From contig CAMOJK010000022.1 in NCBI GenBank assembly GCA_946616835.1, positions 1-32,188 of the forward strand: 32,188 nucleotides of DNA. The letters run 5' to 3'. Under the pieces are notes generated by a model. It searched no databases. It was not told the origin of the DNA and worked only from the letters and a program-made list of their open reading frames with translations. This document shows positions 1,278 through 31,215 of this stretch, one piece after another. Numbering within the stretch: the first letter of the stretch is position 1; every line of letters starts with the position of its first letter. This DNA comes from an uncultured Lachnospiraceae bacterium. GTDB taxonomy: Bacteria > Bacillota > Clostridia > Lachnospirales > Lachnospiraceae. The position numbers and the translations under genes are program-made.

Positions 1278-1299
1278 GCTATTTCCTCTGACAATTCCT

Positions 1300-1330
1300 T
1301 TTTTAATTATACTTTATCTATTGCAGCAAC
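1300..1330 (-). promoter_or_regulatory. Weak internal promoter candidate upstream of the spike gene
   Basis: The 80-bp gap between the hub and spike genes is AT-rich and contains a perfect TATAAT (1306-1311, minus strand) about 28 bp before the spike ATG. No good -35 box sits 16-18 bp upstream; the hexamers there are close to TAAGGT. This could give extra baseplate transcripts but may be chance. Spacing and AT-richness are seen; promoter function is inference. Confidence 0.22.
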
Positions 1331-1357
1331 CTTACATGACTCCTGCACTGCCTTAAA

Positions 1358-2479: not shown

Positions 2480-2490
2480 AATTCTGATCC

Positions 2491-3336: not shown

Positions 3337-3348
3337 ACTGTACCTCTT

Positions 3349-9419: not shown

Positions 9420-9932
9420 TTAGTTAGGAATTACAAGCTCTTCGTATGCGATCTCGATAGACTCGATAGCAACATCGGAATTCTTTGCATCCATATCAGG
9501 TGCATTGTACTTAGCAACCCATGCATTGGTAAGTATCCAAACCTGTGTACCGCCGGTAAGTGCCTCAAGAGCAGCCTGAGGAGTACCCTGGTTTACATCA
9601 ATAAGCTCTATAGAAATATTGTGACGGGGAATCTCACCTCTGATTTCGGATACACACTCCTGTACCCAAGTCTTAAATGCTGTACCCTGTACATAACCAA
9701 GCTTAAGTGTTACATTACCATGCTTTACGAGACCGGGGAGCTTAACAGGTGCCATGCTTCCTGCATTACCCTGTCTGAACTCGATCACGTCTACTGATGA
9801 CTCAATGCCTGTTACTTCACTGAATGCAGCTGTTCCGTCTATACCGTCAACCTGAACGAAGAAGTTCATTTTTGTCAACGGATAAGCTGAACCTCTGCCA
9901 TTTGTATAAGCATCCTGAGTAGTTCCTGCCAT
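9420..9932 (-). CDS. Major inner tube protein (gp19/Afp1/Pvc1 family)
   Basis: 170 residues, the normal size of a T4 gp19-type or eCIS tube subunit. Landmarks: YPLTKMNFFVQVDGIDGTAAFSEVTG, the loop RQGNAGSMAPVKLPGLVKHG, VTLKLGYVQGTAFKTWV, ISIELIDVNQG, then WVAKYNAPDMDAKNSD and the final strand AIESIEIAYEELVIPN. Hexamers of this protein stack into the tube that is driven into the target. RBS AAAGGAGATTAAATT is near consensus, fitting high output. It lies 92 bp after the sheath gene; that gap holds a small TCCC/GGGA hairpin and no evident promoter. There is one canonical tube gene, unlike the several of Afp. A strong hairpin follows the stop. Confidence 0.95.
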   Translation of the reverse strand: MAGTTQDAYTNGRGSAYPLTKMNFFVQVDGIDGTAAFSEVTGIESSVDVIEFRQGNAGSMAPVKLPGLVKHGNVTLKLGYVQGTAFKTWVQECVSEIRGEIPRHNISIELIDVNQGTPQAALEALTGGTQVWILTNAWVAKYNAPDMDAKNSDVAIESIEIAYEELVIPN

Positions 9933-10024: not shown

Positions 10025-11728
10025 TCAGCCTTCTTCTCCGCCACCGCCGGCTTCAGCAGTATGCTGAGTTACACGGAAGATAACGAATTCAGCAGGTCTT
10101 GAAGGAGCGATACCGATGTTGCAGATAAGTCTGCCGTTCATGATGTCGTCCCTTGTCATTGTTGAAGTACCGATCTCTACGAAATAGCTTTCCGAAGCGG
10201 TGCTTCCTGCTAACATGCCATTTCTCCACAAACCATCCAGGAAGGAAGAAACAGTAAGTGCAACTCTCTGCCACAGCATCTGATCGTTGGGCTCGAATAC
10301 AACCCAGTTGGTGTTTGCCTTGATGCTCTCTTCCACGAAGATGAACAGACGGCGAACATTGACATACTTGAATGCAGAATTGGAGCTTGCAGTTCTTGCA
10401 CCCCATACTCTGATGCCCTGTCCCGGGAAGGAACGAATAAGGTTGATTCCTTCAGGATTGAGGATATCCTGCTCACCCTTGTTGTAATTGGTCTTAAGAC
10501 CTGTACAGAAGATAGTCTCATTCGCAGGTGCCTTGTGTACGCCGCGGGCGATATCGGTTCTGGAATATACACCCATGATTGCTCCCGAAGGAGGAATGAA
10601 ACCGGCATTGCCTGTTGAGCGGTCAAGTACCTGGATCCAGGGATGATACATAGCAGCATAAGTAGAATCAATGAGTCCGCGATAACGGATAAGATCCTCT
10701 GTCTTGTACATATCACCGGGCATATCCAGAACTGCAAATCTGTTCTTTAAGTTCTCGCAGTGTGCAACAAGTGCAACTATTACTTCAGGATCTGTAACAC
10801 CGGGTACAGCGATCATTGAAATAATGCTGTTCTCAAGGAAAGCCTGAAGACCTGTTCTGTTGCCGGGGCCGCCGTCCTCACCGATAAATGTGCCGGCCTT
10901 AACCTTAGCAATAGTACCATCGGAACCGCCTGCAAGAAGGAATGCGCCGCTTGTAACGCCCTTGCCAAGGATAGACTCTACAGGACTTAATGCCTTTTCT
11001 GTATCCTTAACTTCCAGCTTTACGATAGCGCTGTGCTTCATGCGGTTACCTATAAATGCAGGTGACTGGTTGTTCAGTGTCATATCTGTGTATGTCTCAG
11101 AATCATCCCCTGCAGTTACCATAAGGTCGAAGGTTACAAGATATACGAAATTCTTGGGAACCGCGCCGTTATCAACAACGCTGTCAGGCATCTTGTCTTC
11201 GAATACAACTACATCATCAAGGATAGCCTTGATCTTGTGGAATGTACCGTTGAATTCAACAACATCACCTTCTCTGAATCCCTCAGTCCTCTTAGCCCTG
11301 TAGCCAACCGGGGTCTTTTCAACAAGCTGCATCTTAACCTTCTTAACGGTTGTTAATGCAACCTGAATCTTGTCACCCCACTTACCGGGATTTGCAGCGA
11401 TGAACTTTACAACACCCTTATCTGCGCTTGCGGGAAGTGCATCCTGGGGAGCTACACGCATTACGTAGCATCTTGTTCCGCCGTTATTGAAAAACTGCTC
11501 TACGCTGTTAGCGAGATATCTGTACTCGCCATATTTAAATTCACTTAAGAAACCGCCAAACTGCTGACGGAAGCTCTTAAAGCTTGTCACAAGCTGAGGA
11601 ACTCCTGAAACAGGACCTTTTTCAGCCATTCCAACGAAACCGGCTGTACTTGTTCCTACACCCTCGATACTTCTGGGTGAATTATCATATTCCTCAACAT
11701 AGACTCCAGGTGAAAAATATTCTGCCAT
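10025..11728 (-). CDS. Contractile tail sheath protein
   Basis: 567 residues. The N-terminus has the sheath hallmark FSPGVYVEEYDNSPRSIEGVG and GTSTAGFVGMAEKGP. The middle (about residues 95-250) is a variable beta-rich insert. The C-terminal half carries the conserved core: ENSIISMIAVPGVTDPEVI, YHPWIQVLDRSTG, IPPSGAIMGVYSRTDIARGVHKAPANE, IRVWGARTAS, KYVNVRRLFIFVEESI, and the closing IGIAPSRPAEFVIFRVTQ, whose strand interlocks neighbouring subunits. A Gly/Glu tail ends the protein. Only one sheath gene is present, where Afp and PVC have three. The RBS is AAGGATAAGG. It contracts to drive the inner tube encoded next. The start is well supported by the SPGVYVEE N-terminus typical of the family. 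Confidence 0.97.
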   Translation of the reverse strand: MAEYFSPGVYVEEYDNSPRSIEGVGTSTAGFVGMAEKGPVSGVPQLVTSFKSFRQQFGGFLSEFKYGEYRYLANSVEQFFNNGGTRCYVMRVAPQDALPASADKGVVKFIAANPGKWGDKIQVALTTVKKVKMQLVEKTPVGYRAKRTEGFREGDVVEFNGTFHKIKAILDDVVVFEDKMPDSVVDNGAVPKNFVYLVTFDLMVTAGDDSETYTDMTLNNQSPAFIGNRMKHSAIVKLEVKDTEKALSPVESILGKGVTSGAFLLAGGSDGTIAKVKAGTFIGEDGGPGNRTGLQAFLENSIISMIAVPGVTDPEVIVALVAHCENLKNRFAVLDMPGDMYKTEDLIRYRGLIDSTYAAMYHPWIQVLDRSTGNAGFIPPSGAIMGVYSRTDIARGVHKAPANETIFCTGLKTNYNKGEQDILNPEGINLIRSFPGQGIRVWGARTASSNSAFKYVNVRRLFIFVEESIKANTNWVVFEPNDQMLWQRVALTVSSFLDGLWRNGMLAGSTASESYFVEIGTSTMTRDDIMNGRLICNIGIAPSRPAEFVIFRVTQHTAEAGGGGEEG

Positions 11729-11752: not shown

Positions 11753-12124
11753 TTATTGGTTTTGTGTCTTAACTTGTCCGGCACTGTCAATTGTGATAGT
11801 CCCGCCGTATGCGCACATTGTCGTGCATGTGTCCGTAAGTATCGGGTAATTCCCTGCCATATCCTTTGGATTTGCTCCCACCCAGGGTGTTCCTGTCATA
11901 GGGGTACAGGGCTGGGGTGCTCCCATTGCTGCTGCTACCGCCGGATTAGCCGGATTAGTACACATTCCGAATGGTCCCAAATTGGAAAAGGGCTGATTAT
12001 CACAAATTGTTGCCACAGGCTTTCCCTCGATACTCAGTTTCATCTGTGATGTAACTTTCAGTGGGGCTGTCGTGGCACTGAATGCGCATCTGCACATTGC
12101 TCCGTTCGTTACAACATTCGGCAT
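11753..12124 (-). CDS. PAAR-like tip protein, DUF4280 family
   Basis: 123 residues. VTNGAMCRCAFSATTAPLKV at the start, then MANDNQP-like ICDNQPFSNLGPFGMCTNPANPAV, PQPCTPMTGTPWV, and LTDTCTTMCAYGGTITIDSAGQ at the end give the DUF4280 pattern of PAAR-like proteins found in eCIS and T6SS-related loci. It would cap the spike with a sharp cone; the cysteines (CRC, CTNP, CTP, CTTMC) may bind metal. Oddly it lies upstream of the sheath, ten genes from the spike it should sit on. RBS GAAGGAGGAAGCA is near perfect. No toxin domain is attached. The length is normal for the family. Confidence 0.88.
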   Translation of the reverse strand: MPNVVTNGAMCRCAFSATTAPLKVTSQMKLSIEGKPVATICDNQPFSNLGPFGMCTNPANPAVAAAMGAPQPCTPMTGTPWVGANPKDMAGNYPILTDTCTTMCAYGGTITIDSAGQVKTQNQ

Positions 12125-12141: not shown

Positions 12142-12909
12142 TTACTCGCTTTCTTCTGCACTTTCCTGTACGATTACAGGTTTTCCATCATCTTCGAAGA
12201 CAATCATTTCAAATTCTTCATGATCATCATATCGTTTGCAGATGATGTATCTGTCATTCGGCCTTCCTGCCCTTACGCGGATAATATAATGCCCATCTTT
12301 TACCTGACCAAATATGATCCTGGCTATCGGTGCATTCTTATCCAGTCCTTCGGGCGGTGCGTCTTCCAGACGAACCTTCTGTGTTGACAGTACCTCTGTG
12401 ATCCTGACTTTTACATAGCCCTTTCTGTCCGGTTTCAGGATTGCGTAGTACTGGTTGTCGAATGTCAGACTGGTTCTCGCCTGACTGAAAAAATCCATTG
12501 AGTTGTCACGCTTGGTAAAGGACGCGAAGCTTATGTTAGTAGTATCAATGTTGATTGCTTCGATGGCCGTGATCGTCGGATCCTCGCCTGAGTAATCCAT
12601 TACCGGCATTCCGCTCTTCTTGCTCTCTGAAGGCATCAGGAACAACAGACATTGCGGTACTCTTTCATCGAGCTCGGCATACTTTATAGGCAATTCGCAG
12701 ACTTCGTATCCTCTTACCTCCACTCGCATGAGAAAGTCTTCTCTGTCCGTGTTGATAAATACGTAATTCCCGCCGCCTCTTGAAGCAGGCCTGGTCAGCT
12801 CTCCGTTGCGATAGATCCTCACATCCAATGTGTTTACCGGCTGTCCGGTAGTCGTGTCAAGTAGTGACACCAACAGATCCAGTCTCGCTCTGATTACAGA
12901 AATGCTCAC
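12142..12909 (-). CDS. CIS-associated protein with N-terminal carboxypeptidase-regulatory-like beta domain
   Basis: 255 residues beginning with GTG; the SD AAAGGAGG stands only about 3 nt before it, and an ATG one base upstream in another frame runs straight into TGA, so GTG is the usable start. Residues about 5-90 resemble a prealbumin-like or carboxypeptidase-regulatory beta sandwich (LLDTTTGQPVNTLDVRIYRNG, GNYVFINTDREDFLMRVEVRGYE). Residues 90-255 form a second beta-rich part (YAILKPDRKGYVKVRITEV, GHYIIRVRAGRPNDRYIICKRYDD), ending in an acidic tail. Genes of this layout often stand next to DUF4255 caps in eCIS loci. A structural or collar role is likely but not proven. There is no signal peptide. 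Confidence 0.6.
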   Translation of the reverse strand: MSISVIRARLDLLVSLLDTTTGQPVNTLDVRIYRNGELTRPASRGGGNYVFINTDREDFLMRVEVRGYEVCELPIKYAELDERVPQCLLFLMPSESKKSGMPVMDYSGEDPTITAIEAINIDTTNISFASFTKRDNSMDFFSQARTSLTFDNQYYAILKPDRKGYVKVRITEVLSTQKVRLEDAPPEGLDKNAPIARIIFGQVKDGHYIIRVRAGRPNDRYIICKRYDDHEEFEMIVFEDDGKPVIVQESAEESE

Positions 12910-12959: not shown

Positions 12960-13553
12960 TCAGGATTCATTTGTATCACCGGTCACTCCCAGATTGAACT
13001 CGCTGTCAACAACACGAGGTGTATTGATAACGACTTCGCTCGACAGGTAAACGGGTGCCGCCTTATAAAACAGGCTTATCTGATAGGGCTTGTTGATAGC
13101 CTGCCACACCCTTACCTTCTCCTCCAGACTTATCTTCGCCTGAGACAGTACTATCGGAGGTTCCTGCGTATCCAACCAGCCCTGGAGCTCGTGTGGGTAC
13201 ACAGAATTGTGGTCGTTGACGATCTGTGCAGCTCGTCCGATGATTTTTTGTATATCCGGGTCTTTCAGGCCCATCTGGCCTCCCCCGTTTATGAAGACCA
13301 TATAGAAAAGATCATATGGTCTTGGCGGCTTTTGCAGCTGGAGCCTGCCCTTCTGGATTCTCTTGGGCTGTGCCACTTCCATGTCCTCTCTAATGTCATA
13401 CAGGTATAGTCCTACTATGTAGTCTACATCCTGTGATGCCGGAGAGGATATCTCTATATTATTCGGAGATGGAATAGGTTCCGGGCACATTTTTTCACGA
13501 AGCATCCTCACGATATATGAGCTAACGTCCGAGATTATAGGATAATCAGCCAT
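12960..13553 (-). CDS. Tail terminator/cap protein, Pvc16/Afp16 N-terminal family (DUF4255)
   Basis: 197 residues. ADYPIISDVSSYIVRMLREKM, then EISSPASQDVDYIVGLYLYDI, RPPRPYDLFYMVFINGG-like KPPRPYDLFYMVFI, and IGRAAQIVNDHNSVY follow the DUF4255/Pvc16_N order. The protein ends in a strand-rich part with VRVWQAINKPYQISLFYKA. In Afp and PVC the orthologue forms the hexameric cap that stops tube and sheath growth. It lies 3 bp after the 948-aa envelope gene and is the first particle component in the cluster. RBS GGGAGAATAACAG precedes the ATG. Length is that of the N-terminal domain only; the longer C-terminal part of Pvc16 is missing. Confidence 0.88.
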   Translation of the reverse strand: MADYPIISDVSSYIVRMLREKMCPEPIPSPNNIEISSPASQDVDYIVGLYLYDIREDMEVAQPKRIQKGRLQLQKPPRPYDLFYMVFINGGGQMGLKDPDIQKIIGRAAQIVNDHNSVYPHELQGWLDTQEPPIVLSQAKISLEEKVRVWQAINKPYQISLFYKAAPVYLSSEVVINTPRVVDSEFNLGVTGDTNES

Positions 13554-13556
13554 CTG

Positions 13557-16403
13557 TTATTCTCCCTTCAATTCACTAACCTTGTTCTCAGCATCATCCA
13601 TCTTTTTGCTGAGAAGACATACAGCATATGCACCGTCACAAGCCGGAACATTTACCGCTCTGCAGTCGAATATTGCCTTTGCGTCTTCACTTCTCAAATA
13701 CATACTGTTCTGTGTTACCACGGTATGCAGAAGGTCTTCCTCACTTGACTCACCCTCATCTAACTTCTCGTACTTAAGACCGTAAGGAGAGAATGTGAAA
13801 GTCAGTGATCCTTTGGTCTTTGCAAGGGTGCAGGAATCTCCGGTAGACACATATCTATATCCTGCTGCTGCCGATACGGACATTAGCGATATATAAATAT
13901 TGTCCGCATCATTTTTATACGGTGTATATATATACAGATTACCCTCTTCACTGAGTTCCTGTGCTATCTTGGCTGCAAGTGTGGCAAAATTATCATAGCC
14001 TTCATTGCCCAGTATCGAAAGCACTGCCAGAAATTCTGCTTTCATTCCGGGGCTCATTTCCTCAAATGACATTCCGAAAAGGTCCTCTAAAAGTGACATC
14101 ATTTCGTCATCAGAAAGACCTAAAATCCCGGTCTTATCATTTGCGCCTGTGCCATCGGCTCCTGTACCGTCGGCTCCTGTACCGTCGTCATTGCCGTTTG
14201 TACCATCCCCTGCAAGGGAATCCGGACCACTGTTTGCCTCCGCCTCTGCCAGAGCAGCCTCTGCATCTGCCATTACGTCTGCATTTGCTCCCATATCCTC
14301 AAGCTTATCCACCAGTTCTGCCATCTGCTCGGCAGCCCCCATTTCAGCCAGCGCGTCCATAGCTTTTGCCAGAGCAGCCTCTGCATCTGCCATAACGTCT
14401 GCATTTGCTCCCATATCCTCAAGCTTATCCACCAGTTCTGCCATCTGCTCGGCAGCACCCATTTCAGCCAGCGCATCCATAGCATTTGACAGAGCATCTG
14501 CATTACCTTCCGCAGCAGCCTCTTTTGCCTTATCCAACAGACTGTCTGCCAATGAGGAATTGCCGCTGCCTCCCAGCTCGTCTATCTGCTTATCTACTGC
14601 TGCTATGAGGGCATCATATTTTGCAGCACCAGCCAGATCGTTATTATCGAGTGCATTCTGGCGTTTTGTATTCAGGTCATCCTTCTGTGCCTGCAGCTTT
14701 TCAAGATCTCCCATCAGACTTCCGTCAGAGTTCTTAATGGTGCTCTCAAGATCCTTCAGGTACTTTATGAACTTATCCAGGGCATCCACTGCATCTCCCT
14801 TAAAGTCATCATTGGGAACCGTCCCCTTTAATTCCTCAGCCCAGGCTTTTATGCCCTGCACATATTCAAGTGCATCAGCCGCATCCATTCTCTTCTGCTT
14901 TGCATCTATAAGCGCCTGATACTGGCTTCTTCTTGATTCCGTCTCATTCGCAAGGTCTGTCAGTATCTGATTTGTAACTGCCTTGGACTTGCCTGATGCC
15001 ACTGCATTCCTATACTCACTGCTCTCACCGGATGTAACTATAGTCTTGAATTGACTCTGTCCGTAAGGAAGAAGATCACTCTCTAAAACCATCAGCTCCT
15101 TACTCTTATCAGCTATCACATCTTTTTCTATATTCATCAGTGCCCGGAGCTTGGTCAGTGATTCTTCACTCCTGGACTCCATTACACTATTGCTGTAAGT
15201 ATATTTATAGTGGCCAAGCACCGTATCCTCATCAGCCAGTGCCTTGGAAGAATACTCTATATAGCTGGTCTGGCAGGCACTGTTAGCCTCGTTAATGGCA
15301 TCCATTATTCCGGTATCCTGTTCAAAAGGATCATCATCATCATACTGACTTCCGGAACAGATATCGTACAGAGCGCCTACCAGGCTGTTAGTACGTTTAT
15401 CATAGTTCACCGGATACTCTTCAGGTGCCGAAATTGAAAACCAGGAGAAAGACGTCGACGCATTGGATTTCGGCATTACTGATGTCCCCAGCGCAGGGTT
15501 CGCTGACGTCCAGTTTTCTGACTCAGTTGCCAGCTTGTCATAAACTATGGCACGCCTCTGTGCGTCTATCATGGAGCAAAGGGAATATACCGTCTCAGCA
15601 TCCTCATCACGTCCGGCATTCATCAGTTCCTGTTTCCACGCATACATATTTGCAAGCTTTTCATCAAGCGCCTTTGTATCATCATCTGTCAGGTCAAGCT
15701 TGAAAAATGTGGATATGGCATCATACAGGTAGTTATCCGAATCCTCTACCTTCTTGTCCTCTGAAAATCTGTTTTCAAGGAACTTCTCCCTGGATACAGG
15801 TTCATGCGACGTTGACTGGGCATACTGGAACCACAGCTGCTCAAACTCCGGCAGGTTCGAAAGGTCATAGGGTGAAGGTATATCAAAAGGATTGATGACC
15901 TCATCCTTATAATTCTTTACGACACCATCTGCACCGACATAGAACTGTACTAAAAGCGGATCTATCTCGCTCTCGTCCACTAACGCCGTGCCTTCAGCGG
16001 TAATATCTGTTACATTCTCAGCCATTGAGAGATCATACCATTCACCATTGCCTATCTCGGACTTGTAGTAAGGAGTATCCTGGCCGGAAGCTGCTGCAGA
16101 ATCATATGCTTTTTCATAGAGTTCTTCAGTCATTGCATCTTTGTGTATGATATACGTTCCGATAAAGAGCACACTGTTCTCGATATTATGGGATGCCTTA
16201 TATTCCTGGAAAGTAATAGCATCCGTTTCGTCAAATGCACCCTTTGCGTATGAACCGTAGATTGCTGCAACCGCTGCTGCAACCATTACGACCATTGACA
16301 GTATAGCAATCCTGCCAAAGCTGCTCTTGTTAGCTGCACTGGATGCTTTATTTGTACTTTCGATCTTCTTAATTGCAGTTTTCTTAATCGCAGTTTTCTT
16401 CAT
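13557..16403 (-). CDS. Large single-span surface protein with coiled coils and a stalk-like C-terminal domain
   Basis: 948 residues. The N-terminus is strongly basic (MKKTAIKKTAIKK), followed by one membrane span at about 31-50, with no obvious cleavage site, so it is probably anchored with the rest outside. Residues about 150-630 are helical. At 639-718 a 40-aa block (AMDALAEMGAAEQMAEL and VDKLEDMGANADVM) is duplicated, and then come a GTGADGTGADGTGA linker and a helical segment. Residues about 800-940 resemble the copper-amine-oxidase N-terminal 'stalk' fold (ISLMSVSAAAGYRYV, VVTQNSMYLRSEDAKAIF). It overlaps the TolC-like gene by ATGA, so the two are translationally coupled, and the cap gene follows after 3 bp. 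I cannot assign a biochemical function; wall spanning or particle anchoring is inferred. Confidence 0.6.
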   Translation of the reverse strand: MKKTAIKKTAIKKIESTNKASSAANKSSFGRIAILSMVVMVAAAVAAIYGSYAKGAFDETDAITFQEYKASHNIENSVLFIGTYIIHKDAMTEELYEKAYDSAAASGQDTPYYKSEIGNGEWYDLSMAENVTDITAEGTALVDESEIDPLLVQFYVGADGVVKNYKDEVINPFDIPSPYDLSNLPEFEQLWFQYAQSTSHEPVSREKFLENRFSEDKKVEDSDNYLYDAISTFFKLDLTDDDTKALDEKLANMYAWKQELMNAGRDEDAETVYSLCSMIDAQRRAIVYDKLATESENWTSANPALGTSVMPKSNASTSFSWFSISAPEEYPVNYDKRTNSLVGALYDICSGSQYDDDDPFEQDTGIMDAINEANSACQTSYIEYSSKALADEDTVLGHYKYTYSNSVMESRSEESLTKLRALMNIEKDVIADKSKELMVLESDLLPYGQSQFKTIVTSGESSEYRNAVASGKSKAVTNQILTDLANETESRRSQYQALIDAKQKRMDAADALEYVQGIKAWAEELKGTVPNDDFKGDAVDALDKFIKYLKDLESTIKNSDGSLMGDLEKLQAQKDDLNTKRQNALDNNDLAGAAKYDALIAAVDKQIDELGGSGNSSLADSLLDKAKEAAAEGNADALSNAMDALAEMGAAEQMAELVDKLEDMGANADVMADAEAALAKAMDALAEMGAAEQMAELVDKLEDMGANADVMADAEAALAEAEANSGPDSLAGDGTNGNDDGTGADGTGADGTGANDKTGILGLSDDEMMSLLEDLFGMSFEEMSPGMKAEFLAVLSILGNEGYDNFATLAAKIAQELSEEGNLYIYTPYKNDADNIYISLMSVSAAAGYRYVSTGDSCTLAKTKGSLTFTFSPYGLKYEKLDEGESSEEDLLHTVVTQNSMYLRSEDAKAIFDCRAVNVPACDGAYAVCLLSKKMDDAENKVSELKGE
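14251..14490 (-). repeat. 120-bp direct tandem repeat in the 948-aa surface-protein gene
   Basis: Two copies (14251-14370 and 14371-14490) with a 120-bp period differ at only a few bases and encode two 40-residue units. A degenerate third unit may precede them, since the flanking SNAMDALAEMG and LAEAEA sequences resemble unit edges. In-frame length allows expansion or contraction without loss of the protein. Confidence 0.9.
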
Positions 16404-18538
16404 TGCGGTTCCCTCATTATCACAGAGCCTGAAGTTGCAAAATATCCTGTTTCAATAAGCGCTTTACCGTCATCATAAAATTCTACCGTCAGTGCCGACA
16501 TATCGCCGGTAATAAGATTCAGATACCTTAAAGATCCACCGGCTTCAATATAATCCTCGCTGCCTATGAACTGTCCCTCTGATGTCCTTATTCTGTAGAA
16601 GGAAGCCTTAACATCTGCCGAAGGAGTAACTGTGATCGTCGTCATTCCCACCGTATCAGGGCCGTCGGTAATATATGTAGCGAGTACATCACTCTCAGTG
16701 GTCTCCGTACCTCTATCAACAACTATATTCAGATAATCGCTGGTCTTGCTGGGCGATATCTCACAATCATCCACGAACTCATCACCATTATAAAATCTGA
16801 TAAAAGCTTTATTGATACATGTCTTTGCCACCGACACATGGCGAAGCTTTTCATCAATAGCTGTTCTCGGTCCTACCTGCACTCCATCGAGCCACAGCTC
16901 ATAATCACTGATCTCTGTATCAAAATCTTCAGGGATAGTGATCCTTAATTCAAATTCCTGATTCTGGATTATGGACTCCAGCGTATAATACGCTCTGTCC
17001 GAATCTTCCTTATAGCTTATACCGTTTGCTCCTGTACCGAGGCTTAAGGACTGATAATCAAGATATCCGCTCACCCAGCCCTTGGTAAGATCATCAAAAT
17101 TATTCAGGGTATCGGAGTATGACTGAAGAGCCTCTATCATGGTATTCTGTGACTCTTCATAGCTTTCAAGTACCTGCTGATACTCTTCAAAAGACATATC
17201 CCCTACCGCATTTTGTACTCTTGCCTTTTCAAGCAGATCCCTGTTGGTATTGACATTTTCCACTGCGGTTTCATATGCATTTCTTGCGGAAACATATCCG
17301 TCAAAAGCATCCACAACGGAATTTTCAAGTTCGGTTTCCGCCAATACCCTGTCAGACCTTGCTGACTGGTACTCCAGGGCATCTTCCTGAAGTACATAGG
17401 GGTCATCTTCTACAAATCTTGTTCCTGCGGTTGAACCTTTAAACCAGATCCTTGGTATCTTGATAAACAGTATTCTTTTCTTACCTTCCCAGTAACTGTC
17501 TACTTTCTTAAGGAAATTTTTATATGAATCCTTAAAAGCCCTTTTATTTATTGTCTGCCCGTTAAGAGCCTGCGTAACATACCCGGAGATAAGATTGATA
17601 TCGCTGCCATATTTCCTCTTCATTATGTCAAAGTTAGTCTGAAGCGAAAGCTTGGCGGTAGTCTCAGCCATGCAAACGTCGTAAAAATCTTCATCCTTGT
17701 CCTTGGTCCACTGTACTATGGAATCAAGCCTGGAATCAGGACTGTTGTACAGGAATTCCCTGTTTATATCAGCTGCAAGGAACGGCTCTTCAAAAGTATA
17801 TCCCGTAGTCACATCGATCCCTGTCTTCTGTGACATCTTTCTTAAGGAAGATGCAAGGCTCCTTTCCTCAGCCGCAATAGTCTTCTCCAGAGTATCATGC
17901 TTGGACTGCAGTGAATCGATATCCGCCTGGGATGCTTCCCCCGTTGCCAGCCTTGCCTTATTCTTGGCAAGGGCTTCATCCACTGACTCAAGCTTTTTCT
18001 TATTGAAATCAAGCTGAACCTGAGTAGTGTAGATGCTGCAGTAAAGCACATTTACTTCGTCATAAACCTTATACTTTACATTCGCAAGCTTTCTCTTGGA
18101 TACATCTATATCAGCCTGCTTCTCTGTGATCGAGAACTCCAGTTCGTAAAGGTCCTGCTGCTTGGGTGACTCAGGAAATTTAAAGCTAAGCAAAGGGGTC
18201 CAGCTGAAAGTATTCAGCCTCTTATATGTAAGTTCCATTGCCTTCTTCGCACTCTCAAGAGCCATATACTTGGCCTCAAGATCATCCTCTGCGCTTTCAA
18301 ATTCCGAACTGTTTGCCAGTGCCAGAGTCCTGGCTGCCGCAATGGTAAGGATCTTATTCTGCGTGCCAGCTGCATTAACCTCCAATGCACCTGTCCCCTG
18401 AACCATTCCCGAAAGCAGAGTCAGAGTGAGCATAAGTGACACCATGCTCTTTACAAGCTTTACAATATGGACTTTTTTATGCCTGCCGGATCCTGTAGAA
18501 TTCAAAGGCTCCCTGGGCGCTGCCGCAGATAAATTCAT
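16400..18538 (-). CDS. TolC-family (outer membrane efflux-like) coiled-coil exported protein
   Basis: 712 residues. A basic n-region, a hydrophobic stretch at about 32-46 and LEVNAAG suggest a signal peptide; the n-region is long, and an inner ATG at codon 32 is an alternative start. Residues about 62-245 and 385-490 are the paired long helices of TolC (ILTIAAARTLALANS, NVLYCSIYTTQVQLDFNKK, KARLATGEASQADIDSL; then ALEYQSARSDRVLAETELE, FDGYVSARNAYETAVENV, NAVGDMSFEEYQQVLESY). Residues 500-712 form an added beta-rich tail with no TolC counterpart. The gene overlaps the MORN gene by 62 bp and the next by 4 bp. TolC needs an outer membrane in Gram-negatives, so its use in a likely monoderm is unclear. 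Family membership is seen; role is inferred. Confidence 0.72.
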   Translation of the reverse strand: MNLSAAAPREPLNSTGSGRHKKVHIVKLVKSMVSLMLTLTLLSGMVQGTGALEVNAAGTQNKILTIAAARTLALANSSEFESAEDDLEAKYMALESAKKAMELTYKRLNTFSWTPLLSFKFPESPKQQDLYELEFSITEKQADIDVSKRKLANVKYKVYDEVNVLYCSIYTTQVQLDFNKKKLESVDEALAKNKARLATGEASQADIDSLQSKHDTLEKTIAAEERSLASSLRKMSQKTGIDVTTGYTFEEPFLAADINREFLYNSPDSRLDSIVQWTKDKDEDFYDVCMAETTAKLSLQTNFDIMKRKYGSDINLISGYVTQALNGQTINKRAFKDSYKNFLKKVDSYWEGKKRILFIKIPRIWFKGSTAGTRFVEDDPYVLQEDALEYQSARSDRVLAETELENSVVDAFDGYVSARNAYETAVENVNTNRDLLEKARVQNAVGDMSFEEYQQVLESYEESQNTMIEALQSYSDTLNNFDDLTKGWVSGYLDYQSLSLGTGANGISYKEDSDRAYYTLESIIQNQEFELRITIPEDFDTEISDYELWLDGVQVGPRTAIDEKLRHVSVAKTCINKAFIRFYNGDEFVDDCEISPSKTSDYLNIVVDRGTETTESDVLATYITDGPDTVGMTTITVTPSADVKASFYRIRTSEGQFIGSEDYIEAGGSLRYLNLITGDMSALTVEFYDDGKALIETGYFATSGSVIMREPQ

Positions 18539-19688
18539 ATATCAGCCCGTCCTTTTCAAAACTGTAAAGGTAAACAACCGCTTCTCTGTTATATCCTGTA
18601 ACCGTCGTCACATCCGTAAACTGCTCCGTACCGGTCAGATTTGCCTCATCATAAATCTTGCCTTCTCCTTTAAGCCTGCTTATAAGCACAGCTTCCGGAA
18701 AGATTACCTTCGATTCACCGTCATACAGCGGTGTTCCTAACAGTGTCTTTATCTCCTCTATGGTACGGACGCTGGTCTTTCCTGACCTGAATGAGTCTGA
18801 CAGTACATATACTTCACTGGTGGTCAGGTCATCCGATAAAGCTTCCGGATCAGCAGATGCAAAATACATTGCATCTATATCATCAAGTACTACACAAACG
18901 CCTTCGTCCGACTGATATACCTCGCGTTCTCCGCTGTATTTCTTTGCTGCTTCCGATGTGGGTATGCCTAAGAGGTCGGAATAAACTATGCTGTCGTAGG
19001 AAAAGTTTCCGTTATAGAGTTCATCGCCCGATGCATTATACAGAATTCCCTCACCGTTACGGTAACCTTCCATAAAGTTTCCGTCATATTCCAGTGTTCC
19101 GATACTCCTGTACTCCTTGCCCCTGCCGTCAAAAAGGTTATTATGGAAATTTCCTACATACCATACAGCCCCATCTTCGTAGTACGCCGTACCTTTGCCT
19201 TCATACTTATTTCCGGCAAACATTCCGCTATATGCACTGTTACCGTTTGGATAATACAGTATTCCGTTGCCGGATACGCTTCCGTCCTCCACATTTCCAT
19301 CATATGCTATGTACCCATCGTGGGCTTTTATCCTCACATGCCCGGTTACAAATCTTAATATAATTGAATTATAAGAGTATGTGCGTACCGTATTCTGACC
19401 TTTTCCGTACCCAAATGCAGAAACATTTGACAAAATGTACCAAATACTGACCACGCCAAGTATAAAAAGTGCCGCGTGAGCCAGTTTTTTACTTATCATC
19501 CAGCCAAAAAGCGTATAATAATCGTTTTTATCCTTTGGCTTGATATTCAGGAGCTTTCCGGCAAATGTCCTGAACTTGTCTATTATCCGCGCCTGAATAA
19601 AGCCCCTGCTGGTATATAGCCTGAACTTCGCTACCAACCTGGTGAGCCTGGACTTAATGACTGTGATTAAAGTGCTTAATATATTCAT
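18477..19688 (-). CDS. Membrane-anchored MORN-repeat protein
   Basis: 403 residues. A basic, helical N-terminus (1-65) is followed by one membrane span at about 68-89 (HAALFILGVVSIWYILSNVSA). Residues about 124-230 hold four to five MORN repeats (YDGNVEDGSVSGNGILYYPNG, YSGMFAGNKYEGKGTAYYEDG, YVGNFHNNLFDGRGKEY, YDGNFMEGYRNGEGILYNASG, YNGNFSYDS). The last 170 residues are mixed alpha/beta and end EFYRIRQA. MORN sheets act as rigid scaffolds or lipid/protein contact surfaces. By the positive-inside rule the repeats should face outside, but this is not certain. RBS CGGAGGATAA is strong. It stands between the cyclase-like and TolC-like genes, overlapping the latter, consistent with one envelope complex. 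Confidence 0.8.
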   Translation of the reverse strand: MNILSTLITVIKSRLTRLVAKFRLYTSRGFIQARIIDKFRTFAGKLLNIKPKDKNDYYTLFGWMISKKLAHAALFILGVVSIWYILSNVSAFGYGKGQNTVRTYSYNSIILRFVTGHVRIKAHDGYIAYDGNVEDGSVSGNGILYYPNGNSAYSGMFAGNKYEGKGTAYYEDGAVWYVGNFHNNLFDGRGKEYRSIGTLEYDGNFMEGYRNGEGILYNASGDELYNGNFSYDSIVYSDLLGIPTSEAAKKYSGEREVYQSDEGVCVVLDDIDAMYFASADPEALSDDLTTSEVYVLSDSFRSGKTSVRTIEEIKTLLGTPLYDGESKVIFPEAVLISRLKGEGKIYDEANLTGTEQFTDVTTVTGYNREAVVYLYSFEKDGLIYEFICGSAQGAFEFYRIRQA

Positions 19689-19716
19689 TTATCCTCCGAA
19701 AATAACAGCCTGCTCA

Positions 19717-22122
19717 TCAGATATCGTCATTATAATTAAGTACCATTCCGTTTTCACCGGGGAAATTGCCATCAAGGCATTTTTCACATTTGAAGAGGTA
19801 CCACTTTGCCAGTTTGTCCATAGGACAATTCTTCAAAAGATCCGAAAATCTGTTTCTTGCAAGATAATAGTCTGACTTATAGAGCAGATCTATCGAATCC
19901 TCAAACTTCTGTCTGTACTCCAGCTTGAGCTGACGCTCCCTTGCTTCGCAGGCATCCAGCACTTCGTACAGATCCTCCCTGCTTCCATCCGGAAGGAGCG
20001 TATAACCTATATATCTGACCTCTGCCTGTCCCGCATCGCGCTCCATTATCTTTTTGGTGACGACCATATTTATGCCCATGCTGCCGAACCACTCTCCAAA
20101 ACGCTCATACACCCTGACCTTTGGAGATGAAATGAATGTCATGGCCTGTGTGCTGTTACCTGCAATACCTACGGTAAACTCGGAGTAGTACACTACCAGT
20201 GACATATTGCTGTTCATTTCTTTTCTCACAGAATTGGTAAAGTACCCGATTCCCAGCTCCAGCATGCGCTTGTTGCTCCTGTCGAAGAACATCTCGACCT
20301 TAGACAGCATGCTGTCGTTGGATACAACAGTTCCTTCCATTTCAGATGCTTCCATGTATTCCATAAGGAATTTCATATTATCCAGAACTTCCCTGTTCTC
20401 CGGTGTGGATGAGGAGGAAAATACTGCCATGGAGCCCTTTGCTACTGCGGTATCACCTTCGTGTACCTCAGTAATCGAATCCTTATGCATAAGCTGCTCG
20501 ATATTCTTAGGTGAGAAACGGTAATATGCCGAATACATCTGGTACTTTGCATGGTTTATCCTGTTTATGCGTCTTACCAGCTCCCGGATAGCCGTATATA
20601 TCAGTTTCTGATCATCACTGACTTCCTTTGCGACCTCAGGCTCTTTTCCATCCTCAACTGCTTCCATGAGCGCTCTCTTGATAAGAGAAATATCCCTGTA
20701 CACCCTTACATCAACCGTAAAATTTACGATCAGGAAGATGACCACCATAAGCCCCACACAGTTATTTATGATACGAGCACATGTCTTCACATCGTCATCC
20801 GTGGCAGGACTGGTATAAAGACCGACAAGACAATATGAACCATTCCCGCTTGACAGCATCGGTGCACAGACAATGTAGTACCCAATGCCCCGTATTGTCG
20901 TATAAGCTGTCTTTGATTCCCTGTCTATGCTGCAGTTCTCTACAATCCGCCTGTAGTAATCGCCCAAAACTTCGCCTATATTCTGGCGGTTCATAAGCTC
21001 TGTATCTATCACGATATTGCCATTCTGTGCATTGACCACCATGAATCTCTCGCAAACCACATTACCGTATGCGCCAAGCTCATCCGTAACAGCAGTATAA
21101 AGGGAGTAATACCCGCTGCTTTCATAGAAATCCGCATCCCCCACTCCATAGTTTTCAGGCATTCCGATGTCATTCAGGCTGTAAACCGTCTCATCAGTAG
21201 CAAGCATTGTTGCTGACTCCTGACTTATGGTCTCCATAACAGCGTTTAGCACAAAAGAAACATTAACCGCTATGAATACTACCCAAACCGTTCCGGAAAG
21301 GATCATGCCCAGTACCCGGCTCTTCTTTTTTACGACAAGCAATACCATGAGCCCTGAAAAAATAACAAGGCAGGTAAATGCAAACACACCGGCAGTACGG
21401 CCCCCCCCCGTCTTTATATCAATAATTATATTGGAATTTCTCGAATTATAGATTTTTCTGATTTCATCAGGAACCGCAAACACACCGGCAGGAGCATCCG
21501 AATCCATCCTTGTGAAAAGCTGTCCGTCCTGATAGCAGGCCGAAGTAAATAAACGTGCGCCTTCGCTTTCCTTCGAATATATCATCGATAATGACGATGA
21601 TGAGGATTCGCTGTCTCTGTTTTCTTCAAAAATATCTTTTCCCAAAAGATAAACATCAGCACGGGTACGCTCCTCATCCATCACTGTTACAAAAAGCTCC
21701 CCATCCTGAACATCTATGCTGCAGGCCCATACATCCCTGTCAGTCTCAAATAATGCCGAAGATTCAACCGGCTTCAGTCCAAGATCGTACTTAAGTATCT
21801 GAAAATAAGCCTTCCCTTCCGGAGTGGTCTTTGTATACAGAACATAAAGGTTATTCTCGTCTGCCGCCATGCCTTCTATCGAAGCCGTCTCATTTTTCTT
21901 AACGTCATAACGGGTGCCGTATTTAACGCTTTTATTAGGTTTTATCCCGTAAATGCGTACACTGTTTCCACAGTCAGAGGAATAATAATATATGCCATTC
22001 TGCTCCACGTACTTGGTGGACTCGTTAAATTCCGACTTGTCACTGTACATCTGTATATAGAGCCAGAAAAACAACAGCGGGAAGAAAACCGTTACTATTA
22101 TTCCTATAATTCTTTTAGCCAT
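19717..22122 (-). CDS. Polytopic membrane protein with degenerate class III nucleotide-cyclase domain
   Basis: 801 residues. TM1 at about 5-24 and a strand-rich outer domain (25-240, beta-propeller-like) come first. TM2 at 245-263 and TM3 at 271-293 follow, then a second outer domain at 295-445 that resembles a Cache sensor, and TM4 at 451-470. The cytoplasmic part is a linker helix, then a cyclase-like domain at about 531-716 starting YYRFSPKNIEQLMHKDSI and TEVHEGDTAVAKGSMAVF. The metal-binding FSD(I/L) motif reads FSSSST, the second Asp motif is not recognisable, and the Asn of the transition-state pair appears to be Arg while the Arg is kept (VRVYERF). A TPR-like tail (730-785) follows. 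It is therefore probably a non-catalytic sensor or scaffold. A G9 tract lies at codons 238-240. Confidence 0.7.
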   Translation of the reverse strand: MAKRIIGIIVTVFFPLLFFWLYIQMYSDKSEFNESTKYVEQNGIYYYSSDCGNSVRIYGIKPNKSVKYGTRYDVKKNETASIEGMAADENNLYVLYTKTTPEGKAYFQILKYDLGLKPVESSALFETDRDVWACSIDVQDGELFVTVMDEERTRADVYLLGKDIFEENRDSESSSSSLSMIYSKESEGARLFTSACYQDGQLFTRMDSDAPAGVFAVPDEIRKIYNSRNSNIIIDIKTGGGRTAGVFAFTCLVIFSGLMVLLVVKKKSRVLGMILSGTVWVVFIAVNVSFVLNAVMETISQESATMLATDETVYSLNDIGMPENYGVGDADFYESSGYYSLYTAVTDELGAYGNVVCERFMVVNAQNGNIVIDTELMNRQNIGEVLGDYYRRIVENCSIDRESKTAYTTIRGIGYYIVCAPMLSSGNGSYCLVGLYTSPATDDDVKTCARIINNCVGLMVVIFLIVNFTVDVRVYRDISLIKRALMEAVEDGKEPEVAKEVSDDQKLIYTAIRELVRRINRINHAKYQMYSAYYRFSPKNIEQLMHKDSITEVHEGDTAVAKGSMAVFSSSSTPENREVLDNMKFLMEYMEASEMEGTVVSNDSMLSKVEMFFDRSNKRMLELGIGYFTNSVRKEMNSNMSLVVYYSEFTVGIAGNSTQAMTFISSPKVRVYERFGEWFGSMGINMVVTKKIMERDAGQAEVRYIGYTLLPDGSREDLYEVLDACEARERQLKLEYRQKFEDSIDLLYKSDYYLARNRFSDLLKNCPMDKLAKWYLFKCEKCLDGNFPGENGMVLNYNDDI
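21401..21409 (-). repeat. Nine-base G homopolymer inside the cyclase-like gene
   Basis: The coding strand reads ACGGGGGGGGGCC, a run of nine G encoding Thr-Gly-Gly-Gly-Arg at about residues 238-241, just before TM2. Mononucleotide tracts of this length can slip during replication. A change of one base would shift the frame and remove TM2-TM4 and the whole cytoplasmic domain. It is the longest G/C run I see in the window. Confidence 0.9.
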
Positions 22123-22153
22123 AACTTTTAAACCTCAGATAAACAATAATCCA

Positions 22154-23002
22154 TCATTCCAGTGATTGTGTACCTATCACTTTGAAATTGTTGTAAAAAA
22201 TCCTTAACCACGGCTGATCTCCAAAAAACAGATTTGAGAGCAGCATTACCAGTGCAACTATTGCAACGATAGAACATAATACAAACAGTATCCTGAAAAA
22301 AAGATCCGAATGCCTTGAGAAGAATTTCTTTATCCTCTTAAATATACCTATCTTACCTTCCGGCGCCGAAGCTATCCTAACGTCACGATACAGCTCGATG
22401 AACTGTGCATAGCTCTTATTTGCACTTTTTTTCATCAGTATCTGATAAGATATCGCCTTTTCATATGAGGCTCTCGCTAACAGATCCGTAAGTATCTCCG
22501 CACAGCATGCCACGCACTCTCTTTCGCCGGTCTTTTCATCCAGCTCGGAAAGATCCACGCCATAGCTCATATATATCGAATCGTCCCTGGAAAGATTGAC
22601 CAGCCTGTGCTTCAGTATCAGGTAAAGCATCGGATAGGGAAGCCCTGATGTAATGCAGGCAAGGATGACATTACAGCATATAGTCTCACACTGATTAATG
22701 CTCATTCCCTCACCCACAAAAAACTTATCCAGAGCCCTCTCCTGCCTGTACGGGAATACGAAAAAATGATCCCTTCCGGTAGAAAAGCTCTCTATCATCA
22801 CACCATTACTGCCATCGGGAGTCGCATTCACATCCAGCATTACAAGCAGCCTTTTTATCAGCTCATGGGATCTCACAAGGAAAACAGTATACTTACTCCT
22901 GTTTTCCCCTGACATATCCGCACATATAAGCACATCAAAATCTTCCGTGGAAAGAGCAGTGCTCAGAACCTCATATTTTGAGTTTTCGGATTCATATATC
23001 AT
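22154..23002 (-). CDS. C-tail membrane-anchored protein, possible pseudokinase fold
   Basis: 282 residues. The first 210 are soluble and the protein ends with a basic stretch (FKRIKKFFSRHSD) and one membrane span at about 234-260, leaving a short outer tail. The order of elements recalls a reduced kinase C-lobe: FFVFPYRQERALDKFF as hinge, SINQCETICCNVILACITSGLP as helix E region, and LVNLSRDDSIYMSYGVDLSEL where the catalytic and metal loops would lie. No HRD, DFG or P-loop is present, so catalysis is unlikely. EssB of type VII secretion has a comparable pseudokinase-plus-TM layout, but I cannot claim homology. Its ATG overlaps the previous stop (TAATG), so it is coupled to the 599-aa protein. 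Function unknown. Confidence 0.55.
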   Translation of the reverse strand: MIYESENSKYEVLSTALSTEDFDVLICADMSGENRSKYTVFLVRSHELIKRLLVMLDVNATPDGSNGVMIESFSTGRDHFFVFPYRQERALDKFFVGEGMSINQCETICCNVILACITSGLPYPMLYLILKHRLVNLSRDDSIYMSYGVDLSELDEKTGERECVACCAEILTDLLARASYEKAISYQILMKKSANKSYAQFIELYRDVRIASAPEGKIGIFKRIKKFFSRHSDLFFRILFVLCSIVAIVALVMLLSNLFFGDQPWLRIFYNNFKVIGTQSLE

Positions 23003-24801
23003 TATGCTTCTGTTTCATCCCCTGTTATCTTCTTTACGATTGCATAAGCATAAGTGCATACCACAGGCATATCGGTACAATAGATCCTGATCTCATAAAC
23101 ACCTTCCTTAGCCGGAGCAACATAGATACCATCAGCAGATATCTCACCGCTTCCGGGAGCCGTAAGCTCATAAGCAATACTGCTTTGAGGCATATTATGG
23201 AATCTGACACCGAAATAGTGACTCTCCTTAAGTCCAAGCACAACTGTGGGTGTCTCAGCCGAAATGCTCTTGTCATAATAATCACCGGGCATATCCAGAT
23301 CATTTCCTGCAGGGAACTTGATCGCAACCCAACGGTATGTAAGTACAAGGTAATTTACACTGCGTAACAGCTTGGCCGCCGCTACAAAGCTTCCCTTGTC
23401 ATTAAGCACCTTTACAGCTACCTCGGCATCAACCTTTTCTTCACCGGTCTCAAAAAGTGAAGGATTTCCATATACTGTGTTCTTTGCATCCATCCCCAGT
23501 GATTCATCATGGTCTATATGCTCATAGCCAAGCTGGACATATACATTTCCCTTACCCAGTCCATGGGTAATCTCCCCCGAGAACTTTACATCCCCGGGCT
23601 GTACATTACGGCCAAGGGGTATCTCCAGCACACCGGTAGCTACTTCGGGACCTGACTTTCTTTCCTTTGTTTCATTCCGGACATCCACGGGTCCCTGCTG
23701 GATCTCAGCTCTTTCCGTGATGTCAACATCCTTCTCATAATAGGATATGAAATGATTTCTCATATACTCCTGCCCGGGAGCAGTAATATACTTCTTTACG
23801 CCATCCTCTATGATCTTGTCTATAACATAAGCATTATCCGTGCGAAGAAGCTTTATCTCCGCCAGCCTGATATAATCGTTCCTGCTGCCGATAGCCATCA
23901 TTTCAAGATTAAGCATGCTTATTCTGTTGGTAACCAGCTCCAAAGGTGTTGCATCTGACATTATGACTTTTATACGGAAGCTGTTTGCCACATTCACTGC
24001 CGTATCATTCTCGTATGCATGTGCAGAGCCGCTTCTTAGGATGACTGCAGTATCATCAGCATCAGCAGGCATAACCTTCATCCAGTACTCTTTGGACCAT
24101 ACCTCACCCTTCTTAAGCTTAAGTCCCGAGCACTCAACGGCGATTGTATTTTCCCCGTTAGCACTTACAAAAAGAGGTGTCTCTAAAAGTCCATCTGCTG
24201 TCAGCTCCACATCAGCATCCGTAAGCTTCGTAACTACCAATTCAAGCCTTACATTCTTTCCCTTGCTAACATAGCCGGGAAGCATTACCTCGACTATAAA
24301 GTTGTCAGACTTAAGGAGTCTTTCTCTTACCAGGAACTCTGTTTCAGGCACATAATCAGGCTTTAAATTTTCTTTATCCGTGAGGAACAGTCCATACCCT
24401 TCCGAAATACGGTTGTACTCGTATTCCTTGCTGGCATTTCCGGTTGCGTTCACGGAATATACTGAATGAACTTCCTTTTCATTATACTTGAGGCAGAGCA
24501 CAGCCCTGTCAGTCTTCAGTGTGTCAAAACCATCTATGGCAGACAGCTTCTTTACCACTGAATTGTCAACTATTATCTCCCTGCCTTCGCCATCTATGGC
24601 CACACCGCTCTCTATCAGTATTGACAGGTCGTCTAAACTGAATGTCCCCAGTCCGCAGACAATACCGCTTCCATACATCAGCACATTGGAAAACCTCAGC
24701 CGATTAACAAAGTAATCCTGCTCTGCCTGAAAATCCGCACTTGTAAGCATCTTTCCCGGGTAGTAACGATTTTTTTCAAAGGGATACATCTGATTTGCCA
24801 T
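23002..24801 (-). CDS. eCIS-associated structural protein with C-terminal Ig-like domain
   Basis: 599 residues, no signal peptide. The N-terminus MYPFEKNRYYPGKMLTSADF, then QAEQDYFVNRLRFSNVLMYG and SGIVCGL, is a recurring signature of a large protein of unknown function in eCIS loci of many phyla. The middle is beta-rich. Residues about 510-592 look like a bacterial Ig (Big_2-like) domain (PTVVLGLKESHYFGVRF, GSGEISADGIYVAPAKEGVY). It follows the ATPase by 52 bp and is coupled to the membrane-anchored 282-aa protein by a TAATG overlap. This suggests it could bridge the particle and the membrane module. Family recognition is from memory of the motif; the function is not established. Confidence 0.6.
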   Translation of the reverse strand: MANQMYPFEKNRYYPGKMLTSADFQAEQDYFVNRLRFSNVLMYGSGIVCGLGTFSLDDLSILIESGVAIDGEGREIIVDNSVVKKLSAIDGFDTLKTDRAVLCLKYNEKEVHSVYSVNATGNASKEYEYNRISEGYGLFLTDKENLKPDYVPETEFLVRERLLKSDNFIVEVMLPGYVSKGKNVRLELVVTKLTDADVELTADGLLETPLFVSANGENTIAVECSGLKLKKGEVWSKEYWMKVMPADADDTAVILRSGSAHAYENDTAVNVANSFRIKVIMSDATPLELVTNRISMLNLEMMAIGSRNDYIRLAEIKLLRTDNAYVIDKIIEDGVKKYITAPGQEYMRNHFISYYEKDVDITERAEIQQGPVDVRNETKERKSGPEVATGVLEIPLGRNVQPGDVKFSGEITHGLGKGNVYVQLGYEHIDHDESLGMDAKNTVYGNPSLFETGEEKVDAEVAVKVLNDKGSFVAAAKLLRSVNYLVLTYRWVAIKFPAGNDLDMPGDYYDKSISAETPTVVLGLKESHYFGVRFHNMPQSSIAYELTAPGSGEISADGIYVAPAKEGVYEIRIYCTDMPVVCTYAYAIVKKITGDETEA

Positions 24802-30270: not shown

Positions 30271-30314
30271 CAGTCCGGCTCTCTTTCCTTAAATCATTTA
30301 CACATATCCGTTTC

Positions 30315-31025: not shown

Positions 31026-31215
31026 TTTTCACTCATCCTATATCATGTGTCCCGGACAGCCGAAGCAACCGGGCACAGTTGTCATCAGCATCCGCAGCTC
31101 TGACCGTTACATCCACGATGTAACATGCAGGTGCCGCGCAGTCTGCTGTATCTGCAATGCTGTCTGTATGCTCCGCCAAGGCCGCTACATCCGTGGTATT
31201 ATCTGTGTGCGCTAC
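31026..31215 (-). other. Gap holding a 60-codon in-frame continuation of the adaptor gene
   Basis: Past the adaptor's TAA (31218-31216) the same frame stays open for exactly 60 codons (VAHTDNTTDVAALAEHTDSI, then ADTADCAAPACYIVDVTVRA and on) to a TGA at 31035-31033, 7 bp before the ATPase start. The text echoes the adaptor's own ending (DVAD). It may be a C-terminal extension cut off by a nonsense change, or chance. A CCCGG/CCGGG hairpin with a TTCG loop lies near its end. I see no promoter here. Confidence 0.45.

Follow-up and report, generated by a model that had tools for sequence, protein, structure and literature searches.

How contractile injection systems (CIS) dock at a membrane and fire there without the proteins of the type VI secretion system (T6SS) is an open question. 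It is raised by a CIS cluster from an uncultured Lachnospiraceae bacterium, represented by a 3.05-Mb draft genome (178 contigs, 85.6% complete; NCBI GenBank assembly GCA_946616835.1). The whole stretch analysed, hereafter the window, comprises 32,188 nucleotides at one end of contig CAMOJK010000022.1 (G000:C22:1-32188). An initial annotation, made from the sequence alone, described five envelope protein genes in a row (A to E); all five open reading frames were found at the positions given, on the minus strand, between the gene for a 599-amino-acid (aa) protein, p599, and that for the CIS cap. Co-occurrence with the CIS, gene order, folds recognised by profile or model, and lost catalytic residues lead us to propose, with a probability of roughly 0.6, that the block of this single-membrane (Gram-positive type) bacterium encodes a docking and firing platform by which the CIS is tied to the envelope of its own cell. 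The genes of the block are:

23002..24801, minus strand: p599, first gene of the block, a predicted Cis13-like baseplate adaptor (CIS13_fam match)
22154..23002, minus strand: A, 282 aa, pseudokinase-like cytoplasmic domain, C-terminal membrane anchor and short outside tail (IGTxSL)
19717..22122, minus strand: B, 801 aa, putative four-span sensor with HAMP-like linker, dead class III cyclase domain and helical tail
18477..19688, minus strand: C, 403 aa, one-span MORN protein (Pfam MORN, 4e-11), the MORN part predicted to lie outside
16400..18538, minus strand: D, 712 aa, exported TolC-fold protein with C-terminal beta domains (OEP/TolC match)
13557..16403, minus strand: E, 948 aa, one-span outside protein with a globular domain, a long helical rod and a C-terminal domain

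Hydropathy, profile comparisons and Pfam agree with the characters first given to these proteins: an anchored pseudokinase-like A, a four-span cyclase-like B, a one-span MORN protein C, a TolC-family D and a one-span E. The p599/A and D/E junctions are TAATG and ATGA, as had been noted, and 3 nt separate E from the cap gene. The annotated 62-bp overlap of C and D exists if D begins at its first ATG, which may not be the true start. A scan for promoters and terminators gave site counts not above those of shuffled sequence.

Are these genes tied to the CIS, or do they merely lie beside it? We searched 200 genomes drawn from the family, defining CIS positives by a sheath search (21 of 200) and scoring the best few candidates per genome (at most five for B and D, four for E, 12 for A and nine for C). 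A gave 24 matches at E 0.001; the 19 strong ones (E 3.4e-26 or better) were all in sheath-positive genomes, and the five weak ones (3.9e-7 to 4.2e-4) in sheath-negative genomes. C, at E 1e-20, was found in 19 genomes, exactly the set with A. Neither had a strong match in the 179 sheath-negative genomes (C being searched at E 1e-20 only). Two sheath-positive genomes yielded neither A nor C. One is G006, where the contig breaks off within C; the other is G046 (L198), whose sheath-like gene, 63% identical, stands alone, with no further CIS gene within the 20 kb shown. D gave 15 matches, 11 of them strong and all sheath-positive, the four weak ones (8.3e-8 to 4.5e-4) including G046; E gave 12, of which 11 were strong and fell in the same 11 sheath-positive genomes as D. 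No strong match to D or E was found in the other 10 of the 21 sheath-positive genomes, one being G046. Fisher tests, which ignore shared ancestry, gave 1e-24 for A or C against the sheath and 9e-13 for D or E. Chance neighbourhood, in which the genes would occur mostly without CIS genes or be lacking from CIS clusters of close relatives, is rejected by this co-occurrence for A, C, D and E, and for these four the proposed dedication to the CIS stands.

The plain match count for B (192 of 200 genomes) is uninformative because its HAMP region matches ordinary sensor proteins, so long strong matches and gene maps were used instead. Of the 21 sheath-positive genomes, 16 have a long strong match (E 5.5e-48 or better), located on the contig that carries the sheath or on one with p599, the cap or PAAR; two more long matches lie outside CIS (G000:C12 and G125:C30). 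According to the gene maps, B is absent from G176, G104 and G085, where D and E are kept.

A second sample comprised the best 80 of 174 stretches with a related sheath, from a scan of named genomes, and overlaps the first in part (at least L059 and L091). These loci come mostly from Lachnospiraceae or Butyrivibrio, many from the rumen. Three related sheaths, one from strain AB2028, are 96-97% identical to that of the window, and the cluster is present in strains not marked as metagenome-assembled genomes, for example Butyrivibrio sp. AE2015 and FCS014, and Lachnospiraceae XBB2008 and AB2028. Among the 80, 73 extend past the cap; E follows in 69, D without E in three and an unscored fragment in one. 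All 55 loci reaching C show C and D in order, with E next in 52. The recurrent order is p599-A-(B)-C-(D)-(E). The five envelope proteins do not form the single unit first proposed, since strong matches to D and E are lacking from 10 of 21 sheath-positive genomes and B is missing from three clusters that have both. The core is p599, A and C; B is a frequent partner (16/21) with relatives outside CIS, and D with E is an add-on of one subclade (11/21). The AAA+ ATPase next to p599 is not part of the block, as its position varies among clusters.

The core extends beyond the family. Among 291 genomes drawn from the class, the sheath was found in 17 and p599 in 13, with a long match (E 1.3e-94 or better) in seven; all seven are sheath-positive and have the seven best sheath matches. 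G358, from another family of the order, and G420 show the complete order p599-A-B-C-D-E-cap. In G462, from another family, p599, A, B and C are present, and the place of D is taken by a protein of 426 aa that has a signal-like start, matches D weakly (29 bits) and belongs to no Pfam family found. In G224, B and C are present and p599 is broken by stops; this cluster (L189, L190), with open B and C frames beside the broken gene, is apparently decaying. In G399, the one examined of ten other sheath-positive class genomes, no A, B or C lies within the 38 kb fetched.

What, then, would join the particle to the membrane? The p599 gene, left outside the five-protein set of the initial annotation, offers a candidate. 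Its residues 8-156 match NCBIfam CIS13_fam (NF053767) at E 6.3e-28 and 98.1 bits; the match is confined to the N-terminal ~150 residues, as it is in three of three further homologues (87.9-97.1 bits). For p599 and the other block proteins, alignment rows were taken from representatives (16/16 for p599 and A, 12/12 for B, 22/25 for C, 28/29 for D, 34/43 for E), omitting tandem copies and long outliers, and membrane segments were called by a simple hydropathy scan. No C-terminal transmembrane helix was seen in p599: 14 of 16 rows have no hydrophobic segment, and two have one at residue 55 or 260, away from the C-terminus. No profile of a solved structure and no fibre family in Pfam matched p599, and its C-terminal part can be aligned across the clade, unlike a variable fibre.

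The position of p599 also recalls a fibre. The slot after Tail_P2_I is reported to hold fibres in ~90% of extracellular CIS (eCIS) (PMC12923769). In 10 of 10 clusters of a second gene arrangement p599 directly follows a relative of Tail_P2_I, and gene maps of L123, L124, L126 and L129 show no fibre-sized gene directly after Tail_P2_I; the family was confirmed by Pfam for L136 and, in the first arrangement, L123, and elsewhere by similarity to these. In the thylakoid CIS, the Cis13 N-terminal domain is described as binding the baseplate while a C-terminal helix enters the membrane, and 9 of 14 particles seen were free when that helix was missing (PMC8894136); CisA is likewise encoded in a fibre-like position (PMC12237407). 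In G399 (L193, L194) a Cis13-type N-terminal domain heads three tandem proteins, 873-1956 aa long, each with Peptidase_S74 close to its end. The Peptidase_S74 chaperone is typical of tail fibres. Because the N-terminal domain of p599 also heads these S74 proteins, and p599 sits in the fibre slot in the second arrangement, we read the Cis13-type domain as one plug with two possible attachments: fibres would serve against foreign cells, and an adaptor would serve at the cell's own membrane. p599 itself is likely the baseplate link.

Among the proposed membrane partners, A shows a C-terminal segment in all 16 aligned homologues, six of which have a second one inside the kinase-like part. Profile comparison with local Ser/Thr kinases gave E 1.3e-6 (probability 90.6, 135 columns), against 0.05-0.9 for six mismatched controls, and the best profile match in the PDB was PAK1 (E 0.0024). 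No Pfam kinase family was found in any of the 16 members, and HRD, DFG and the Gly loop GxGxxG are absent from all 16. We describe A as pseudokinase-like, with a putative remote kinase fold.

B has four segments in 9 of 12 rows. It matched local cyclases by profile comparison (E 2.4e-7, probability 93.5), Pfam Guanylate_cyc weakly (0.051) in one of 12 members, and HAMP in four of 12. Among 19 CIS-linked copies the first metal Asp is found in none, the second in one and the GD pair in none; catalytic residues are intact in seven of seven comparison cyclases. These results point to a degenerate class III cyclase domain that keeps the fold and has lost the catalytic Asp residues. The copy at G000:C12 (L199, 11889-14699) is a chromosomal 936-aa receptor cyclase paralogue of B with intact catalytic residues, outside any CIS seen, and cyclase genes of similar length are present in other genomes of the genus.

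All 22 rows of C show a single segment, and the one PHROGs match of C (2.8e-10, function unknown) covers the MORN part. A phage or plasmid origin of the module, searched for with A and C, was rejected: A had no match in 50,697 phage records, and C had five partial plasmid matches, none covering 80%.

D carries two OEP repeats in a helical hairpin fold, as in TolC. Its model shows no bilayer-crossing beta-barrel; strands of 3-4 residues occur at 112-120 and 353-362, in blocks with a predicted local distance difference test (pLDDT) score of 62-75. The outer membrane marker Omp85 was found in none of 10 genomes tested. With this and the lack of long strands in the model, D is unlikely to be an outer membrane channel, and that candidate was set aside. 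Every one of the 34 aligned E rows has a single segment, at the N-terminus. Two tandem copies of E occur at L090-L092 and L105 (L091 and L105 are probably the same genome); the copy at L105 13044-16463, left out of the alignment, has no segment. Only a small part of E stood out, a C-terminal domain resembling the N-terminal domain of amine oxidase. Foldseek gave no match to E at E 0.001, PHROGs gave a weak one, and homology to a PDB entry was rejected, the best profile match (E 0.0014) covering a short helical stretch.

Genes beside related clusters bear on how the system might be triggered. STAS and SpoIIE-type genes (HAMP; dCache in two loci) lie beside the CIS at L123, L124, L125, L126 and L129 and at L107, L196 and L197. 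A STAS gene directly follows Tail_P2_I in 5 of 6 loci of the first arrangement, SpoIIE-like phosphatase genes occur at L107, L126, L129, L196 and L197, and response regulator genes stand shortly before p599 at L108, L109, L110 and L186; one regulator, two STAS proteins and three phosphatases were confirmed by Pfam. Families of these three types matched none of the 24 window proteins scanned. The STAS and SpoIIE-type neighbours suggest a link to partner-switch signalling.

The flanking signalling genes would also suit a system that kills its own cell. Under stress, the module would draw free particles to the inner face of the membrane and have them fire into that membrane as programmed lysis of the producer, D and E being wall or surface remodelling proteins outside the path of the tube. 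The precedent is CisA, a bitopic protein needed for contraction and encoded at the usual fibre site (PMC12237407), and nine sheath-positive family genomes with a CIS cluster lack a strong match to D or E. Several dedicated outside proteins, two of them large (D and E), exceed the needs of a self-kill trigger, and none of the 24 window proteins scanned could be recognised as the product of a lysis gene. We regard self-perforation of this kind as a serious possibility that falls short of being probable.

Our best reading of the genes and models remains the docking platform, in which docking to the membrane of the producing cell, combined with sensing, would have taken the place of attachment by fibres, with wall-spanning parts in one subclade. 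p599 would plug into the baseplate through its Cis13-type N-terminal domain, at the fibre's site, and its C-terminal part would bind a complex in the membrane made of A, with the pseudokinase domain inside and the short conserved tail outside, and C, with its MORN part outside. B, which would have sensor regions outside and a HAMP-like linker and dead cyclase domain inside, would pass an outside signal by a change of shape, without making cyclic AMP or cyclic GMP, and so free the baseplate to fire; a signal input is proposed because of B itself and the flanking signalling genes of relatives. In their subclade, D and E would carry the platform across the cell wall, giving a T6SS-like device. 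Firing through the wall is considered for one reason, that D and E both lie outside the membrane; where these two are lacking, the target may be the cell's own membrane, as in CisA systems. In its fullest form the proposal is of a trans-envelope CIS that single-membrane bacteria gate by a signal, the functional equivalent in Clostridia of the T6SS, in which the fibre on a Cis13-type plug is swapped for a membrane adaptor, the pseudokinase and pseudo-cyclase serve as mechanical switches, and a barrel-less TolC-fold protein and a rod protein cross the wall in one subclade. That form is tentative, and we hold it rather doubtful.

Several points weigh against docking and its extension through the wall. 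p599 scores below the NCBI cut-off for full-length Cis13 (98.1 against 370 bits), as do the three homologues. Because CIS loci supplied the search profiles, CIS-linked copies are favoured. Protein distances of C (r 0.94), B (0.94), p599 (0.91) and A (0.86) follow those of the sheath, a point in favour of docking; these correlations, like that of E (0.76), were computed without phylogenetic control and with duplicates kept, and the distances of D track the sheath poorly (0.53). In G106, G188 and others, B is separated from A and C and comes after the cap, PAAR or the 255-aa protein; it cannot be essential because it is missing from the three clusters that keep D and E (G176, G104 and G085). In G462, A has no visible membrane segment, and in G224 A was not found. 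A tunnel through the wall is no general need, since D and E are missing from half of the CIS. TolC-type trimers are narrower than a CIS tube, and D could therefore hardly be a simple tunnel for it.

The remainder of the cluster identifies the particle. The main genes are all on the minus strand and run, in transcription order, from HlyD, ABC and FtsX genes through the AAA+ ATPase, p599 and A to E to the cap, then the 255-aa protein, the PAAR-like DUF4280 protein, the sheath, the tube, a 120-aa protein, p614, p794, two CIS_tube proteins, a LysM-like protein, the spike and gp25. The features outside the block are:

24854..27217, minus strand: AAA+ ATPase of the CIS (Pfam AAA, 2e-28), outside the membrane block and placed elsewhere in other clusters
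12960..13553, minus strand: CIS cap (Pvc16_N; Pfam, 4.4e-28), next operon gene after E
12142..12909, minus strand: 255-aa CIS-cluster protein of no family, conserved between cap and PAAR
11753..12124, minus strand: PAAR-like tip (DUF4280; Pfam, 8.8e-28)
10025..11728, minus strand: contractile sheath (Phage_sheath_1, 8.6e-18, and Phage_sheath_1C)
9420..9932, minus strand: inner tube (T4 gp19 family, 3.3e-29)
438..4257, minus strand: tube initiators (two CIS_tube), LysM-like protein and spike
1..414, minus strand: gp25 baseplate wedge (GPW_gp25, 1.9e-18), at the window edge

With a sheath, gp19-type tube, gp25, spike, two CIS_tube proteins, PAAR-like DUF4280, cap and AAA+ ATPase recognised by Pfam, this is a true CIS cluster of the eCIS lineage. 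Families of TssJ, TssL and TssM were absent from a Pfam scan of the 24 window proteins, a scan made for the window and not for the other loci. The AAA+ ATPase is a hallmark of eCIS. An ordinary extracellular CIS, its particles released on lysis and its envelope proteins serving regulation, assembly quality control or release, would account for these typical particle genes and the ATPase. It fits poorly with the strict co-occurrence with membrane proteins, with the lack of a fibre family in p599 and with the missing fibre-sized gene after Tail_P2_I at the four loci mapped, and we consider it improbable.

Two parts of the cluster evolve fast, the CIS_tube pair (2491-4257) and p614 (6684-8528). 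Identity between the window and L023/L024 is 71-80% for the CIS_tube proteins and 75-77% for p614, against 97-99% for sheath, tube and spike. In p614 a conserved N-terminal stretch of ~145 residues precedes a repetitive, hypervariable remainder, and lengths among 71 complete homologues vary between 143 and 1002 aa. On visual inspection the N-terminus resembles a tube protein of the gp19 type, a match that the tube profile does not find; p614 is possibly a variable tube extension or cargo carrier.

The HlyD, ABC and FtsX genes (27607-32163), directly upstream of the CIS ATPase, allow yet another explanation, that with D and E they form an export pathway that merely sits in the CIS operon. The TolC fold of D would suit this, as would an ABC gene that lies, beside a many-span neighbour, at ~8.5 kb from the B gene of G224 (L189), though the G224 cluster has no D or E match. 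In the locus tables no such transporter set lies directly beside the block at other loci, where ABC-type matches occur elsewhere in some, and it was rejected as a pump for D. The strong matches to D and E, in 11 of 200 genomes, are all sheath-positive. We give separate neighbours very little credence.

Docking at the cell's own envelope has relatives among known systems. For cyanobacteria, Streptomyces, haloarchaea and Amoebophilus, a CIS with its own dedicated anchor in a membrane is either known or has been proposed (PMC8894136, PMC12237407, PMC11566945, PMC12210884). The anchor, sensor or gate first suggested for this locus fits the anatomy of its proteins, and the accompanying idea of a membrane-bound or signal-fired CIS was already in print for the thylakoid CIS, CisA, the haloarchaeal CIS and T6SS subtype iv. 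The protein set itself was not found in the literature searched on CIS and appears new within it; the terms Lachnospiraceae, MORN, TolC and transmembrane do not occur in the available text of PMC8213781. If the subclade with D and E fires outwards, it would wield a contact weapon of rumen and gut Lachnospiraceae, likewise not found in that literature.

The closest parallel is the thylakoid CIS of Anabaena (Cis13, Cis12, Cis19), which shares the Cis13-type N-terminal domain on a proposed linker between baseplate and membrane and the re-use of a fibre-like protein for anchoring (PMC8894136). Cis13 there has its own membrane helix, whereas p599 has none at its C-terminus and is followed by separate membrane proteins; the membrane and the phylum also differ. 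Streptomyces CisA resembles the module in its Gram-positive cell and in placing a dedicated membrane protein, a proposed sensor and checkpoint, where fibres would be (PMC12237407). It differs as a single bitopic protein with a solute-binding-like outside domain, and the sections of PMC12237407 consulted describe no pseudokinase, MORN, pseudo-cyclase or TolC-like protein. The haloarchaeal T6SS-like CIS (Hbor_38620) differs in relying, by its description, on one six-span protein (PMC11566945). T6SS subtype iv of Amoebophilus, likened here by its description, has an eCIS-like particle on the inner membrane and a fibre-like protein named Cis13, unlike ours in a Gram-negative cell (PMC12210884). 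D shares the two-repeat helical hairpin fold of TolC and other outer membrane factors, from which it differs in lacking a bilayer-crossing barrel in the model, in having no outer membrane marker in 10 of 10 genomes, and in its extra C-terminal beta domains. Set beside the three partial answers given by CisA, Cis13 and the haloarchaeal anchor, the module described here would be a fourth, multi-protein one, situated in a Gram-positive gut group and with a readable evolutionary step from fibre to membrane adaptor.

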